From Myxococcales bacterium (GTDB lineage: Bacteria; Myxococcota_A; Polyangia; GCA-2747355), in the NCBI GenBank assembly GCA_020431405.1, contig JAGQIK010000124.1, positions 1-38,281 of the forward strand: a DNA stretch of 38,281 bases. Reading direction: 5' to 3'. The notes below the pieces were generated by a model that ran no database searches, was not told the DNA's origin, and worked only from the letters and a program-made list of their open reading frames with translations. This document shows positions 3,618-33,441 of this stretch, piece by piece. Both the position numbers and the translations under genes were made by a program. Numbering within the stretch: position 1 is the stretch's first letter; each line of letters begins with the position of its first letter.

Positions 3618-3652
3618 CGCGATTACGCTGGTTTGCCGTCTAACGCTCCAGC

Positions 3653-3659
3653 AGGGGAA
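3653..3659 (+). promoter_or_regulatory. Ribosome binding site favouring the ATG at 3666
   Basis: AGGGGAA is spaced six bases from the ATG at 3666. It favours that start over the in-frame TTG at 3633. Confidence 0.6.
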
Positions 3660-3665
3660 CAGTGC

Positions 3666-6353
3666 ATGGATCAGTCGCGCAGGGTGTTGCTCGTCGAAAG
3701 CGATGCAGGCTTCGGCGAGCAAATCCGAGGCTCTCTCTCGGTCTTCAATCTCGACGTCGAGCTCGTCGGTGACGGCACGCAGGCGCTGCAGCGCGCCAAA
3801 GACGCGCCGCCCGATCTGATCTTGCTGTGCGTCGAGCTGCCGAAGATGAGCGGCTACTCGATCTGCAACAAGCTCAAGAAGAACCCGTCGCTCAAGGACG
3901 TGCCGCTGGTGATCATGTCGTCCGAGGCGACACCGGACATCTTCGAGCAGCACCGTAAGCTCAAGACGCGCGCCGAGGAGTACCTGATCAAGCCGTTCGA
4001 TATGAACGAGCTGTTGGGCAAGATCCGGCCGCTGCTCGACGGCGGCGCGCCGCACATCGACGACCCGATGGAGACGAACGTCGAGCTGGATGACCTCGAC
4101 GCCGACGAGACCTCGGTGCTCGGTCGTGATCGCGCCAGCGAGCTGATCGCCGCGTCGCAGACGCCCGAGGTCTCAGACGCCGACGCGATCGAGATCGACC
4201 CCGACGAGCTGATCGACGAGGGCGACTACATCGCCGACGATCCGACGCGCATCAACTTCAGCCAGAGCGACGCGCTCGCCATGCAGGACATCGCCACGCG
4301 GCACTCGCTCGGCGAAGGCGACGACCAGACGAGCACAGACGCCGTGGAGCTCGACGAGGTGGTCGACGACCAGATCGATCTCGAGACGGACGCGGCGTTC
4401 GCGCGGCTCGAGCTCGAGGCGGGCGCCAAGCAGCGCGAGGACGACCGCCCGGTGGTGATCACCATGGCCGAGGCGGCGCAGCAGGGCACTGCGCCCAAGA
4501 CGGCCGGCGACGACGCCATCGACCTCGACGACGACGACATGCCGCTCGAGGTCGAGTCGGCGGCGGAGGCGGCCAATCCGCCCTCGGCGCAAGCGGCCGC
4601 GCGCGGCGGCGCGGCGTCCGAAGACGCCATCGACGTGCTCGAAGTCGAGACGCTGCGCGAGGGTGACGTGATGTCGCACTCCTACGCGCGCGACACGCTG
4701 CCCGGCGACGACGCCAGCATCGCGCTGGCTCAGGCCGCGGCGGCGAGTGAGCCGCCGGTGCGGCCGTCGGCGACGGAGATCGTGCAGGAGCATCTGCACG
4801 GGCGGCCTCCGCTCGACGAGCAGCGCGAGCGCAGCGTGCCCCCCGTGCGTCCAGCCGCGACGGCGGCGATCGAGCCCGATGTGAGCGCCACGCTGCGCAA
4901 CCTCGAAGGGCGCGTCGACGAGCTCGAGGCGGAAAACGAGCGGCTGCAGCGCGAGCTCGAGGTGGAAAACGAGCGCTTTCAGCGCGAGCTCGAGGTGAAA
5001 ACCGAGCGCTTTCAGCGCGAGCTCGATAGCGAGCGCGAGCGCGCCGAGCGGGCCGAAGCGTCGGCTGCGAGCGCCGCGGCGAGCGCCAGCTCGGCGTCGA
5101 GCTCGAGCTTCTCGCGCGATCGCGAGCTGCTGTCGCTGCGCGAGGTCATCAACAAGAAGGAAAAGGAGATCCTCGATCTCAAAGACGACCTCGACGCCAA
5201 GGAACGCCAGATCCTCGACCACAAGGACAAGGTCCGCGAGCTCGAGCGCAAGGCGCGCGACATGGACGAGAAGTTCCTCGCGCTCGAGCGCGAGCTCGTC
5301 GGCGCCAAGGAACGCGTCGAGGCGCTCGAGTCTGACAAGCAGCGCCTCGTCGAACGCGAGGAGGGCGTCAAGAAGCGCCTCGAGCAGGCCAAAGAAGAGA
5401 TCGAGAAGTCGCACCAGGAGTACGACGAGCTCAAGTCGACCTCCGACGCGGAGCTCGAGCAGGCCAAGCAGGCGCACGCCGACGAGCTCGCGCAGGCGCG
5501 CAGCGCGCACCAGAGCGAGGTGGCGCAGCTTCGCGCGGAGCACGAAGAGGCGCAGCAGCAGGCCGAGCAGGCGCACGCCGAGGAGCTGGCCGCGCTGCGC
5601 GACAAGCAGGAAAGCGAGCTCACCGAGCTGCGCAGCAGTCAGGCGCAGGAGGTCGAGCGACTGCGCAACGAGAGCGAGCGCACGCTGGCCGCGCGCGACG
5701 ACCAGCATCAGCAGGCGATGCAGAAGGCGCGCGACGAGGCGCAGTCGGCGCTCGAGCAGGCGCGCAGCGAGCACGCCGGCGAGATGCAGTCGCTCGCCGA
5801 GGGCCACAGCGCCGAGCTCGCGCGCCGCGAGCAAGACCACGAGCAGACCGTGGCTTCGATCAACGAAGCGCACGTCAGCACGGTCGCCGCGCTCGAGAGC
5901 AAGCACGAAGACGAGCAGCAGGCGTTGCTGCAGAAGCACGCCGACGAGGTCGCGCGCCTCGAGAGCGAGCACGCCCGCGCGCAGAGCGAGATGCAGCAGC
6001 AGCACGCCGAAGCGACGGCCGAGGCGCGCTCGCGCCACGAGCACGAGGTCAGCGAGATGGCGAGCGAGCACGCCGGCGTCAAGGCGCAGCTCGAGGGCGA
6101 GCTCGAAGAGGCGCGCGCGGCGATCGCCGATCGCGAGCGTCAGATCGCCGAGTTCGAGGCCAAGGTGGCCGCTCAGGAGCAGCAGCTCGTCGCGGCCTTC
6201 CACAAGATCCGCCACGACGAGCAGCTGAGCGACAAGGCGCAGCGCGCGCTGGCCATCGCGATCACGCTGCTCGAAGAGCAGAAGAAGGTCGCCGCCGAGG
6301 CGCCGGCCGCAGAGGGCGGCGGTGAAGAGGGCAAGCGCGCGCCACAGAATTGA
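3666..6353 (+). CDS. Pseudo-receiver/coiled-coil protein of the FrzS/AglZ type
   Basis: The protein has 895 residues. Residues 5-125 form a receiver-like domain whose CVELPKMSGYSICNKLKK, SSEATPD and EQHRKLKTRAEEYLIKP segments resemble FrzS and AglZ, myxobacterial gliding and polarity proteins. The usual phospho-acceptor aspartate is C55, so the domain probably works by protein binding, not phosphorylation; E11, D13 and the lysine of LIKPF remain. Residues 130-400 are acidic, low-complexity linker. About 405-870 are charged coiled coil: first hendecad repeats, then long stretches with regularly spaced His-Ala and Glu. The C-terminal DKAQRALAIAITLLEE segment also resembles the tail of that family. 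Predicted role: cytoplasmic scaffold for polarity or motility. It lacks other motility genes nearby, so the cellular process is not proven. Confidence 0.85.
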   Translation: MDQSRRVLLVESDAGFGEQIRGSLSVFNLDVELVGDGTQALQRAKDAPPDLILLCVELPKMSGYSICNKLKKNPSLKDVPLVIMSSEATPDIFEQHRKLKTRAEEYLIKPFDMNELLGKIRPLLDGGAPHIDDPMETNVELDDLDADETSVLGRDRASELIAASQTPEVSDADAIEIDPDELIDEGDYIADDPTRINFSQSDALAMQDIATRHSLGEGDDQTSTDAVELDEVVDDQIDLETDAAFARLELEAGAKQREDDRPVVITMAEAAQQGTAPKTAGDDAIDLDDDDMPLEVESAAEAANPPSAQAAARGGAASEDAIDVLEVETLREGDVMSHSYARDTLPGDDASIALAQAAAASEPPVRPSATEIVQEHLHGRPPLDEQRERSVPPVRPAATAAIEPDVSATLRNLEGRVDELEAENERLQRELEVENERFQRELEVKTERFQRELDSERERAERAEASAASAAASASSASSSSFSRDRELLSLREVINKKEKEILDLKDDLDAKERQILDHKDKVRELERKARDMDEKFLALERELVGAKERVEALESDKQRLVEREEGVKKRLEQAKEEIEKSHQEYDELKSTSDAELEQAKQAHADELAQARSAHQSEVAQLRAEHEEAQQQAEQAHAEELAALRDKQESELTELRSSQAQEVERLRNESERTLAARDDQHQQAMQKARDEAQSALEQARSEHAGEMQSLAEGHSAELARREQDHEQTVASINEAHVSTVAALESKHEDEQQALLQKHADEVARLESEHARAQSEMQQQHAEATAEARSRHEHEVSEMASEHAGVKAQLEGELEEARAAIADRERQIAEFEAKVAAQEQQLVAAFHKIRHDEQLSDKAQRALAIAITLLEEQKKVAAEAPAAEGGGEEGKRAPQN
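4920..5051 (+). repeat. 33-bp (11-residue) tandem repeat at the coiled-coil start
   Basis: Three close copies begin at 4920, 4953 and 4986, and a diverged fourth at 5019. Each encodes an 11-residue unit of the form ELEVENERFQR. An 11-residue period is a hendecad, which suits a nearly straight, slightly right-handed coiled coil. Confidence 0.85.
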
Positions 6354-6359
6354 TGCCCA

Positions 6360-6380
6360 GGCCTCGGGCCTCGGGCCTCC
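6360..6380 (+). repeat. GGCCTCG heptamer array, about three units
   Basis: Two exact GGCCTCG heptamers and a third ending in C start seven bases after the stop of the coiled-coil gene. The reverse complement array lies at 6544-6571, so the pair could fold into a long stem. Between them (6381-6543) I see no convincing gene: a 46-codon frame at 6456-6596 exists but runs through the repeats and has no ribosome site. Confidence 0.85.
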
Positions 6381-6543
6381 GGCTTCCGGTCGCGGCCGCC
6401 AGCGTACCGCACGCTGCTACCGAACAACCGCTCGTATCGCGAGCCAGCGCCGACCATGAGCAAGATGCGCAAGACGTCCCTGCGAAGCACGCTCTCTGGC
6501 CTTGCCGAACGTGTTGGTCACCAGGTAGCCGGCGTTGCAGGTC

Positions 6544-6571
6544 CGAGGCCCGAGGCCCGAGGCCCGAGGCC
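6544..6571 (-). repeat. CGAGGCC heptamer array, four units (inverted partner)
   Basis: Four exact CGAGGCC units, the reverse complement of the array at 6360-6380. Together they make an inverted-repeat cassette of about 212 bp in the hflX upstream region. Confidence 0.85.
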
Positions 6572-6592
6572 CTTCGCTCCTCGGGTTCTTCG

Positions 6593-6620
6593 TTGACAGC
6601 TGCGGCGACGGCGCTAAACA
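6593..6620 (+). promoter_or_regulatory. Candidate sigma-70-type promoter for hflX
   Basis: A perfect TTGACA (6593-6598) is separated by 16 bases from TAAACA (6615-6620), which matches the -10 consensus at the first, second and fourth positions. Transcription would start near 6627, leaving a leader of about 55 bases before the TTG at 6683. Confidence 0.5.
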
Positions 6621-6682
6621 TCGCCCGCTGATTCGAGCGTCGACAGTGAGCACGGCGCACAGCGGCTTCGAGACGGGTCGAT

Positions 6683-8341
6683 TTGGCTAGCAACAAGGTT
6701 ACCGGCAACACCAAGGGCCTCAAGGCGAGCGCGCTGCGCGCCGCCGAGCGCATCTTCCGGCGGCGCATACGCCCCAACGACGCGGTAACCCCCGAGTTCG
6801 CCACGTTCCTGTGCGAGGTCTCGCACGAGATGGGGCGGCAGGTGGGTGTGCTGGTCGACCGACGCGGTCAGCCCGACCACGTGTTTGTCGGCGACGCCAA
6901 CCGGCTGTGGCTGCCCGATATCGGCCGCCTGCGCGCCGGTCGCGGCCGACTGCGCGGCCTGCGTTTGATCCACACGCACCTGCGCGACGAGCCGCTGACC
7001 AACGACGATCTCACCGACCTGGCGCTGCTGCGGCTCGACCTGGTGATGGCGATCACCATGACCGCCGACGGGCTGCCCAAGGACGCGCACGTCGCGCACC
7101 TGCTGCCCGAAAACAGCGACGAGGAGATGTGGCGCGTGCTGCCGCGCCAGCCGCTGCATCAGGTGGCGCTCGATCCGCTCGAGCTGACGCGCTCGCTCGA
7201 GGAGGAGTTCGCGCGCGCGTCGGCGGCACGCGAGGCGGGCGGCGCCAACGCCGCGTTGCTGATCCACGTCGCGCTGCGCGGCGAGCGTGCACCCGAGGTG
7301 AGCCTCGCCGAGCTGACCGAGCTATGCGCCACGGCTGGCGTGTCGGTCTTCGATCGCGTGATCCAGCCGCGCCAGTCGCCCGATCCGCGCTACGTCATCG
7401 GCCGCGGCAAGCTCGAGGAGGTGCTGCTGCGCGCCAACCAGCTCGGCGCCGAGATGCTGATCTTCGACTGCGATCTATCGGCGGCACAGGCACGCGCGAT
7501 CTCCGACGCCACCGAGCTGAAGGTCATCGACCGCACCATGTTGATCCTCGACATCTTCGCGCAGCGTGCGCGCAGCCGCGACGGCAAGCTGCAGGTCGAG
7601 CTGGCGCAGCTGCGCTACACGCTGCCGCGGCTGGTCGCCAAGAACACGATGATGAGCCGCTTGACGGGCGGCATCGGTGGGCGAGGCCCCGGCGAGACCA
7701 AGCTCGAGATCAACCGCCGGCGCGCGCGCGATCGCATCGCGCGCCTGACGCGCGAGCTCGAGCAGGTCGGCGAGCGACGCACGCGCCGTCGCTCGCTGCG
7801 CACGCGTCGCGGGCTGCCGGTGGTGAGCCTCATTGGCTACACCAACGCCGGCAAGTCGACGCTGCTCAACACGCTGACGCAGAGCAAGACGCTGGTCGAG
7901 GATAAGCTCTTCGCCACGCTCGACCCCGCCAGCCGGCGGCTGCGCTTCCCGCGCGAGCGCGAGCTGATCCTCACCGACACAGTGGGCTTCATCCACGATC
8001 TGCCGAGCGAGCTGGTGGAGGCGTTTCGCGCCACGCTCGAGGAGCTTGACGAGGCCGACCTGCTGCTGCACGTGGTCGACATCTCCGATCCCTCCTACGA
8101 GGCGCACATCGCCGCGGTGCGACGCATCGTCGCCGACCTCGGCCTCGCGGAGACGCCGACGCTGTTGGTCTTCAACAAGATCGATCGCCTCGACGCCGAC
8201 GAGCTCGAGCGGCGCACCAAGGGGCTCGGCGGCATTCCGCTCTGCGCGCTCGAGCAGCAGAGCGCGCGGCCGCTGATGGGCGCGATGGAAGAGGCGCTGT
8301 GGCGCGGCGGGCACGACGTGCAGCTGCTCGCGTCGAGCTAG
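6683..8341 (+). CDS. hflX: GTPase HflX (ribosome-associated)
   Basis: HflX is a GTP-binding protein that acts on ribosomes, splitting stalled or stressed 70S particles. Here the HflX core starts near residue 190; the [10 protein letters not shown] signature precedes a long helix. The G domain has GYTNAGKST at 385-393 (P-loop), DTVGF (G3) and NKID (G4). At 552 residues it is longer than the roughly 430 of E. coli HflX. The extra N-terminal 185 residues include VTGNTKGLK and [18 protein letters not shown] and belong to an extended form I associate with myxobacteria. The start is taken as TTG at 6683, because VTGNTKGLK lies immediately after it and the next ATG, at residue 51, would cut this conserved part. 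The ribosome site is weak. Inverted heptamer cassettes flank the gene on both sides. Confidence 0.93.
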
Positions 8342-8349
8342 CGGACGAA

Positions 8350-8412
8350 GGCCTCGGGCCTCGGGCCTCGGGCCTCGGGCCTCGGGCCTCGGGCCTCGGG
8401 CCTCGGGCCTCG
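8350..8412 (+). repeat. GGCCTCG heptamer array, nine units
   Basis: Nine perfect head-to-tail heptamers begin nine bases after the hflX stop. This is the same unit as at 6360-6380. An inverted array follows at 8551-8578. The perfect identity of the units suggests recent slippage or active homogenisation. Confidence 0.95.
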
Positions 8413-8431
8413 GGCAGCGCTAGCAGCCGCC

Positions 8432-8451
8432 TGGCTCCAGGCTCGGAGCCA
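8432..8451 (+). terminator. Hairpin downstream of hflX
   Basis: TGGCTCC, a six-base AGGCTC loop and GGAGCCA form a perfect seven-base-pair stem inside the cassette after hflX. There is no T-run. It could terminate hflX transcription or be part of the repeat structure. Confidence 0.35.
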
Positions 8452-8550
8452 AGGAACGTCATGCGAGCGCTTGCGAGCGCTTGCGCGCTTCTCAGCGAAG
8501 TGGTGGCACGGCGCAACTGCGAGCGCGAAGCGCGAGCCTGTGGCGCGACC

Positions 8551-8578
8551 TGAGGCCTGAGGCCCGAGGCCCGAGGCC
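8551..8578 (-). repeat. Inverted heptamer array after hflX, about four units
   Basis: Two TGAGGCC-type variants are followed by two exact CGAGGCC units, the reverse complement of the array at 8350-8412. The span 8350-8578 therefore repeats the layout of the cassette upstream of hflX. The bases between (8413-8550) hold short GCGAGCGCTT direct repeats but no recognisable gene. Confidence 0.8.
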
Positions 8579-8595: not shown

Positions 8596-9702
8596 TTACT
8601 TCGGCTTGGCCTTCAGAATCGCCCGCCCGTCTCGGATCACGACCTGAAACTCGACGTCGCGCCCGGCGTGCATCTGCTTGAGCTTGGGCAGCTGGCGGTT
8701 GATCGTTTTGACCAGCGCGTCGTAGCGCACCGAGCTGGCGTCCTCGCCGCAGATCTTCTTGGCCTTGATCAGGCGCCGATAAAGCGAGCGCATCTGCGGC
8801 TCGGGCAGCGAGCCGTCGCTGCCGGCGGACGGCGATGGCGCGGGGCGAGAGCGCGCGGGGCGAGGCGGCGGCCGGCGCATGTGCTCTGGCGGCGGCGCCG
8901 AGACGCGCGCGCGCACGCGCGGCGCCGAGGGGAGATCGTGGGAGTCGTCGTAGGCGGCGGCCGGCGGCGGCGGCGGCTGGCCTTGCTGGGCATAGCCGTA
9001 GTCGTCGCCATAGAACCCGTCGGAGGTCGGCGCGTCGTAGCCGGCATACTGGCGCTGCTGTTGCGGCGGTCGCGACGGTCGGGGGCGGCCCTGCGCGGGC
9101 GCCTCGGGCCACGCGCGCGGCGCGCTGGGATTGGTCTGATCGTCGGGGTCCCAGTTGGTCGCCGCCGGCGCGGCCTCGGGCTGTAGGCCGCCGCTGTCGT
9201 CGAGGTGCATCGGCGCCTGCTGGTTGTGACCATATGGATCACGCAGCTGCTCGGCTGGGCGCCCGCGAAGGTCGCTGGCGCTGCGCCGCTTGATCTCTTT
9301 GTCCTGGTCAGCCGCCTCGCGCAGCGCTTTCTCGAGCTGAACCTCGTTGAGCTGCTTGCCCTTGGCGGGCAGCGCGATGCCCTTGTCGGCGAGGCGCCGC
9401 TTGAGACGCGCCACGTCTCGGTGGTACGTGCCCTTCTCGATCTGGCGCAGGGTGCGGTTCCAGTAGGTGCGGTAGGAGTTGTACTTCTGCATCAAGGTGC
9501 GGAAGCGGAACTTGAGGCCGGTGTTGCGGATAGGCGTCGACTCCAGGAGGCGCATCAAGCGCACTACCTCCTGGCGTTGCATCTGCGGCTCGCGCTTCTC
9601 GATGCCGAGGAAGTACTGCTCGTAGAGCATCCGGAGGCGGTCGAGCTTGTGATGAAAGTCGACGACCGTCGACTCGATCTCTGACTGATCGAGCTCCGCC
9701 AC
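8596..9702 (-). CDS. Hypothetical protein with MXAN_5187-like C-terminal domain
   Basis: This 368-residue protein has three parts. Residues 1-150 are helical and charged, with a YFLGIEKREPQ segment and an IRNTGLKFRFRTLMQKYNSY segment that I associate with conserved myxobacterial proteins. Residues 150-290 are disordered: Pro, Gln, Asp, Tyr and Arg-rich, with a run of five prolines. Residues 295-368 (LYRRLIKAKKICGED, then VEFQVVIRDGRAILKAKPK) resemble the MXAN_5187 C-terminal domain of Myxococcus proteins, whose function is unknown. There is no signal peptide or membrane segment, so it is probably cytoplasmic. It is convergent with hflX and divergent from the lipoprotein gene at 9761. The start ATG at 9702 has a long conserved-looking region right after it. 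I do not assign a function. Confidence 0.75.
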   Translation of the reverse strand: MAELDQSEIESTVVDFHHKLDRLRMLYEQYFLGIEKREPQMQRQEVVRLMRLLESTPIRNTGLKFRFRTLMQKYNSYRTYWNRTLRQIEKGTYHRDVARLKRRLADKGIALPAKGKQLNEVQLEKALREAADQDKEIKRRSASDLRGRPAEQLRDPYGHNQQAPMHLDDSGGLQPEAAPAATNWDPDDQTNPSAPRAWPEAPAQGRPRPSRPPQQQRQYAGYDAPTSDGFYGDDYGYAQQGQPPPPPAAAYDDSHDLPSAPRVRARVSAPPPEHMRRPPPRPARSRPAPSPSAGSDGSLPEPQMRSLYRRLIKAKKICGEDASSVRYDALVKTINRQLPKLKQMHAGRDVEFQVVIRDGRAILKAKPK

Positions 9703-33320: not shown

Positions 33321-33441
33321 GATGTCGCGCTTCGCGCGCCTTGGCTCGGGCCTTTGGCCCTCGCGTTTGGCGTGTTGTCGGGATGTCGCGCTTCGCGCGC
33401 CTTGGCACGGGCCTTTGGCCCTCGCGTTGGCGTGTTGTTGG
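33321..33441 (+). repeat. Two tandem copies of a 61-bp hairpin-bearing unit
   Basis: The unit starts at 33321 and again at 33382. The copies differ at one base in the CTCGGG/CACGGG position and by one T deletion. Each holds two short hairpins: CGCGC-TTC-GCGCG and GGGCC-TTT-GGCCC. No gene is visible here. Two adjacent copies without spacers are not a CRISPR array. The gap 33263-33562 is otherwise filled by the terminator hairpin and the hexamer tract. Confidence 0.9.

Follow-up and report, generated by a model that had tools for sequence, protein, structure and literature searches.

Results

Two heptamer cassettes at the hflX locus

The window analysed here, a 38,281-bp stretch of the draft genome of a Myxococcales bacterium (class Polyangia), carries hflX between a response-regulator gene and a convergently oriented neighbour, and a cassette of short GGCCTCG units lies on either side of hflX (Table 1). 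Pfam searches assigned the response-regulator domain to the upstream gene and the GTP-binding N and M regions as well as MMR_HSR1 to hflX, and gave no known family for the convergent gene; an Rfam search of the window returned no matching RNA family.

Table 1. Genes and repeat features around hflX in the window.
Feature	Position	Strand	Remarks
Response-regulator receiver domain protein, long coiled-coil-like tail (flanking gene)	3633..6353	+	
Upstream element, left arm	6360..6387	+	GGCCTCG GGCCTCG GGCCTCC GGCTTCC; 6 nt past the response-regulator stop codon
Upstream element, middle	6388..6543	.	no similarity to the middle of the downstream element
Upstream element, right arm	6544..6571	-	four exact units; 111 bp ahead of the called hflX start
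hflX (ribosome-binding GTPase family)	6683..8341	+	TTG start as called
Downstream element, left arm	8350..8412	+	nine exact units (expanded); 8 nt past the hflX stop codon
Downstream element, middle	8413..8514	.	unique sequence
Downstream element, conserved inner core, type II	8515..8550	-	GGTCGCGCCACAGGCTCGCGCTTCGCGCTCGCAGT on the minus strand; common to many other arms
Downstream element, right four-heptamer arm	8551..8578	-	17 bp beyond the stop codon of the convergent gene
Convergent gene, function unassigned	8596..9702	-	kept beside hflX in three relatives

An earlier note on this DNA had placed inverted arrays at 6360–6571 and 8350–8578, and all four arrays were found there, facing each other as one pair spanning 212 bp and another spanning 229 bp; the 13 exact double units of the window compare with 0 in 100 dinucleotide shuffles. 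The composition given in that note can be refined. The upstream left array, counted as three units, is present but better described as four, two exact and two variant, which is the canonical number, and the downstream right array does have four units, two of them exact and two GGCCTCA. The two middles are unrelated, as had been claimed, but the inner 36 bp of the downstream right arm are a conserved sequence and show, together with the adjoining array, about 90% identity to many other loci of the genome. Elsewhere in the window, a 300-bp convergent intergenic region contains a 61-bp tandem duplication (33321–33438) with GCGCTTCGCGCGCC and GGGCCTTTGGCCC.

A dispersed family of inward-facing pairs

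The two cassettes flanking hflX are members of a genome-wide dispersed repeat family. The genome (11.2 Mb in 733 contigs) contains 275 exact double units, around which about 1.1 Mb was fetched; in this array-centred sample, genes were called with a codon-usage model (91% coding) and arrays were searched with the degenerate unit GGC[CT][TA]C[N]. All genomes used are drafts, mostly MAGs, in which arrays may break assemblies. The search yielded 145 arrays, 106 of which have exactly four units, and a minority of 5–12 units includes the nine-unit array behind hflX. Among neighbouring arrays of the sample, 44 pairs face inward, none outward, and 11 point in the same direction. Of the inward pairs, 36 have a gap of 63–172 bp and the other eight one of 385–698 bp; judging from those inspected, these wide gaps probably arise in part where a small gene stands between two independent arms.

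The dispersed repeat family suggested in the earlier note is thereby borne out by the genome-wide search for inverted GGCCTCG pairs that the note had proposed, with arrays recurring in a paired, inward-facing design. Two outcomes that it had named as contrary evidence were not encountered: pairing is inward only, and not a uniform scatter, and the same design in other, separately assembled genomes shows that the repeat is no assembly artefact, although the nearest relatives are free of arrays.

Inward arrays spaced 1–5 kb apart hold ordinary-looking genes, and an autonomous copy of the element was therefore rejected. The one gene translated between such wide arms (locus L076) looks, from its sequence, like nagA. 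Inverted copies of GCAACGAATCCGAATACATGANCGACGGRACAAAGAACGCG lie on either side of it (760–840 and 2350–2400), just inside the two heptamer arms, and may belong to a further dispersed family or to DNA inserted into the arm pair. In addition, two contig ends (L041, 1–141; L081, 1–132) share a sequence (ATCCTATGCGGGCCGGCTGGACTGGCC...) directly adjoining a heptamer array, probably because the assembly was interrupted there by an insertion present in several copies.

Anatomy of the module

The conserved module comprises about 28–30 bp, i.e., four tandem GGCYWCR units followed by GG, or RGG(CYWCRGG)x4; in aligned four-unit arrays, information extends over positions 1–30 and is at background level outside. 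Units vary mostly at the last base (G to A) and at the fourth base (C to T), and a count of units beside exact blocks made with no degenerate filter shows the same variable sites. Within the unit, the GG pair varies least; where each tract begins, G is replaced by A in about 20–45% of units. Three unit types, GGCCTC, GGCCAC and GGCTTC, coexist in the genome, and the 7-bp period and the unit count are constant across them: the GGCCAC type, which was not used to choose the contigs, has four units in 18 of 18 arrays.

In pairs with four units on both sides (n = 28), the two arms are of the same unit type, with one mixed case. Coevolution of the arms was rejected, as an overall p = 0.002 stemmed from the matching of unit types and no signal is seen within the main type, GGCCTC, where arm likeness amounts to 0.899 within an element and 0.907 between different elements (p = 0.93). 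Arms of one element are thus no more alike than random ones and give no covariation evidence for an arm–arm stem. For the homogenised arms of the earlier note this means that the arms are alike genome-wide but not homogenised locally; the insulating hairpins that it also suggested are conceivable, but gain no support from covariation.

About one arm in two continues into a conserved core, either of type I (approximately GGATCG N3 GCGNNCG N3–5 TGCACGCTTCGC) or of type II (GGTCGCGCCGYAGGCTCGCGCTTCGCGCTTCGC), and all 12 strict type II matches adjoin an array. For the type I core, a bulged stem of 7 bp with pairing in 90% of cells can be drawn; compensatory changes are absent from this stem, and RNAalifold gave no consensus structure for the type I core. 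No identical copies of an element were found, only the arms being alike and all middles different, and target-site duplications at the elements did not exceed chance.

Placement relative to genes

The 139 intergenic arrays include 91 in sense orientation at no more than 30 nt from a stop codon, the median distance of arrays from the stop codon being 9 nt, while random placement in the same intergenic regions gave 28.4 ± 3.8 such arrays with a maximum of 41 in 2000 trials. Counting intergenic regions of 40 bp or more, the sampled contigs have arrays in 44 of 64 convergent, 36 of 292 tandem and 4 of 141 divergent regions; since these contigs were chosen for carrying arrays, the fractions are not genome-wide rates, their ranking being clear nonetheless. 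Solo arms between tandem genes show a moderate bias only (16 sense versus 6 antisense, p = 0.05). The stop codon before an array is TAG in 83 of 107 cases (78%), compared with 493 of 888 (55%) overall; at 55%, TAG is also the commonest stop codon of the sampled high-GC genome.

The earlier note had further considered DNA- or RNA-level control of hflX. As the same modules stand behind many other genes, and the hflX flanks of relatives are free of arrays, control specific to hflX is not supported and was rejected.

Distribution among relatives and within the class

The gene hflX and its convergent neighbour are kept together in two genomes of the same family (G001, G002) and in one of the same order (G003), and the response-regulator gene is kept beside hflX in G001 and G003. 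Between hflX and the convergent gene lie 54 (G001), 49 (G002) and 48 bp (G003), compared with 254 bp here, of which the element fills 229; from the response-regulator stop codon to HflX residue 12, the distance is 363 nt here, 98 in G003 and 46 in G001. No period-7 arrays were found in about 300 kb of G001–G004. The repeat was gained in a lineage-restricted way, and the clean comparison with an empty site comes from this one locus, read from relatives that are about 70% identical. Of the further sites compared, L077 and L099 yielded no clear-cut result, and L048 was rearranged.

Across the class, the degenerate four-unit pattern has a patchy distribution: it is present in 19 of 317 genomes, with 211 matches here, 42 in G518, 28 in G471, 10 in G520 and 9 each in G462 and G113, and this search returned none in family or order mates of the genome under study. 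The design recurs, with differently spelled units, in several of the other Polyangia genomes. Arrays in G471/G472, G133, G518, G462/G520 and G113 have mostly four units (three of six in G113), in a search that required four units and so selected against shorter arrays, not against longer ones; they lie mostly on the stop side and form 11 inward and 0 outward pairs. Among the loci compared between G462 and G520, no orthologous pair of array sites was found. A Myxococcota genome outside the class (G240; L163, 1449–1845) has GGCCTCR/GGTCTCA arrays of 13 and 26 units, which by their great length differ from the four-unit modules described here.

Discussion

Known repeat systems

None of the papers searched prints these repeat sequences in a bacterial context. 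Their architecture has its closest precedent in the GGGAATC/GGGNATC heptameric repeats of Xanthomonas, reported together with GGGGAYT of Nostoc (Rehm et al., 2015; PMC4692102). The Xanthomonas repeats are dispersed and intergenic and prefer four units. They include 70 and 75 pairs facing inward, are found in sense orientation up to 50 bp past stop codons and rarely occur between divergent genes; their four-unit preference was tied to quadruplex formation, and no function could be assigned (PMC4692102). Judged by this published description, the Polyangia family matches them in every architectural respect tested, namely the 7-nt unit with its G-tract, the four-unit peak, dispersed intergenic occurrence, sense placement on the stop side, inward pairs and scarcity between divergent genes. 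Still, it is not the same repeat. Its unit is GGCYWCR, it belongs to another phylum and has several spellings in one genome, and G3 quadruplex capacity is missing from most of its arrays; most non-GGCCTC arrays lack G3 tracts and hence form no ordinary quadruplex. In addition, there is partial self-complementarity within the units, many arms continue into a conserved inner core, and placement between convergent genes is far commoner in the regions sampled here than for the Xanthomonas repeats.

A likeness also exists to the REP/BIME/REPIN systems with their RAYT transposases (PMC3116915; PMC3733652), which share hundreds of short extragenic copies, inverted doublets with variable spacer and many copies just behind stop codons. 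However, REPs consist of a short palindrome tagged by GTAG or CGTC (PMC3116915; PMC3733652), whereas the modules here are tandem heptamers; in a palindrome test against REP, the arrays self-fold and the type I stem is drawable, but neither consensus structure nor compensatory changes emerged. Furthermore, no RAYT is flanked by the modules at the eight Y1 loci examined, and their presence does not follow that of Y1_Tnp. The TAACTGA direct repeats of Beggiatoaceae, abundant intergenic heptamer tandems of 2–6 copies, are A+T-rich, almost never inverted and placed just upstream of start codons (PMC4679880), whereas the present modules stand behind genes.

A REP-like, probably mobile module

We lean towards the view that the cassettes are a REP-like dispersed non-coding repeat, probably non-autonomous mobile DNA, which now lies in 3' untranslated regions. 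The module would have spread as non-autonomous mobile DNA, its four-heptamer end being recognised via sequence and length and not via folding, and would settle where an insertion does little damage, i.e., behind genes and very rarely between divergent promoters. After settling, it would become part of the 3' untranslated RNA, where units 1–2 could fold on units 3–4, or arm on arm, and the folded module may affect transcript ends. Recognition of the sequence by a protein, probably as the end of a mobile element, is what we infer from the constant number of four across unit types, which neither a quadruplex nor a self-hairpin explains. Against mobility stands that no mobilising enzyme was identified and that neither target-site duplications nor identical element copies occur. 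An ordinary MITE, in which the whole element is kept between terminal inverted repeats and bordered by a target-site duplication, is likewise not at hand, since the modules have neither such a duplication nor a conserved middle.

Alternative readings

Alternatively, hairpins that the modules form in transcripts could, between genes, terminate transcription in both directions or stabilise mRNA 3' ends. Their sense orientation at a few nucleotides from the stop codon, the strong enrichment between convergent genes and the near lack of modules between divergent genes would suit such a role, as would the computed self-folding of a four-unit GGCCTCG array at −18.1 kcal/mol and the finding that REPs of E. 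coli reduce translation when they lie no more than 15 nt from a stop codon (PMC3116915; PMC3733652). We nevertheless consider this unlikely. The intrinsic-terminator combination of hairpin and T-run was not found, and that T is not enriched downstream of the arrays speaks against a terminator of the standard intrinsic kind. The computed self-folding energy spans about −17 to −8 kcal/mol across unit types, with GGCCTC at about −17 and GGCTTC weaker at about −8 to −10 kcal/mol, so that a hairpin fails to explain the fixed number of four. Moreover, the two arms of an element do not covary, and close relatives manage without the modules altogether.

Four G-tracts seven bases apart could also keep the unit number at four by forming a DNA or RNA quadruplex, as proposed for the Xanthomonas GGGNATC repeats. 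With these, the modules agree in the four units, the sense location on the stop side and the inward pairs; no part of the unit varies less than the GG pair, and a G3 quadruplex motif occurs in 52 of 121 GGCCTC-type arrays. Yet this motif is found in none of the 24 GGCCAC- and GGCTTC-type arrays of this genome, which have four units too, and in 2 of 26 four-unit arrays of other than GGCCTC type from other Polyangia. In view of the frequent replacement of the first G of the tract by A, and of a Watson–Crick hairpin being preferred even when quadruplexes are allowed in the folding, the quadruplex appears improbable as the reason for four units, two-tetrad quadruplexes being possibly compatible with the G3-motif and folding computations.

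Enlargement of ordinary heptanucleotide tandem repeats by polymerase slippage in tolerant intergenic DNA has been proposed in the literature for bacterial heptamer repeats (PMC4692102; PMC4679880) and would suit the minority of longer arrays, e.g., the nine units at 8350–8412. This reading is already disfavoured, and we hold it to be very improbable here: the unit count peaks sharply at four, alike across unit types, and inward-only pairs, shared inner cores and precise placement at stop codons are not products of slippage.

Finally, that the modules are classical REPs or REPINs moved by a Y1 tyrosine transposase (RAYT) is scarcely credible and was rejected: in spite of REPIN-like inverted doublets with variable spacers, a drawable type I stem and 12 Y1_Tnp matches in the genome, a four-heptamer pair was seen around none of the eight Y1 loci inspected, arrays occur without Y1_Tnp in the draft genomes G462 and G520 and 17 Y1_Tnp without arrays in G028, and the type I core has neither consensus structure nor compensatory change, so that RAYTs, which do not track the arrays, are an unlikely enzyme. 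The genome does contain repeat ends GGGGTCACTCT...AATCAAAGGGCGC...CACAATGACA that flank a Y1-type transposase gene (L119, 1111–1958, the same site as L108, 11880–12727), with a gene-less copy at L044 (4471–4600); these look like a separate REP/IS200-like family of this genome.

Implications

Returning to the REP-like module, we put forward as a tentative generalisation that four-by-seven modules in facing pairs behind stop codons may be one kind of element, found in at least two distant groups of bacteria, Xanthomonas and Polyangia, with the spacing as its trait and not a quadruplex or hairpin. That the same architecture is kept by unit types lacking the needed G-tracts and differing in self-folding opens the quadruplex account to direct testing, and suggests that the modules are recognised by something able to count four heptamers. 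The patchy distribution within the class, with some species carrying the repeats and their close relatives not, is well suited to asking whether the repeats move. If such an element kind exists, it would imply that four heptamers are read by a protein or transposition system hitherto undescribed.
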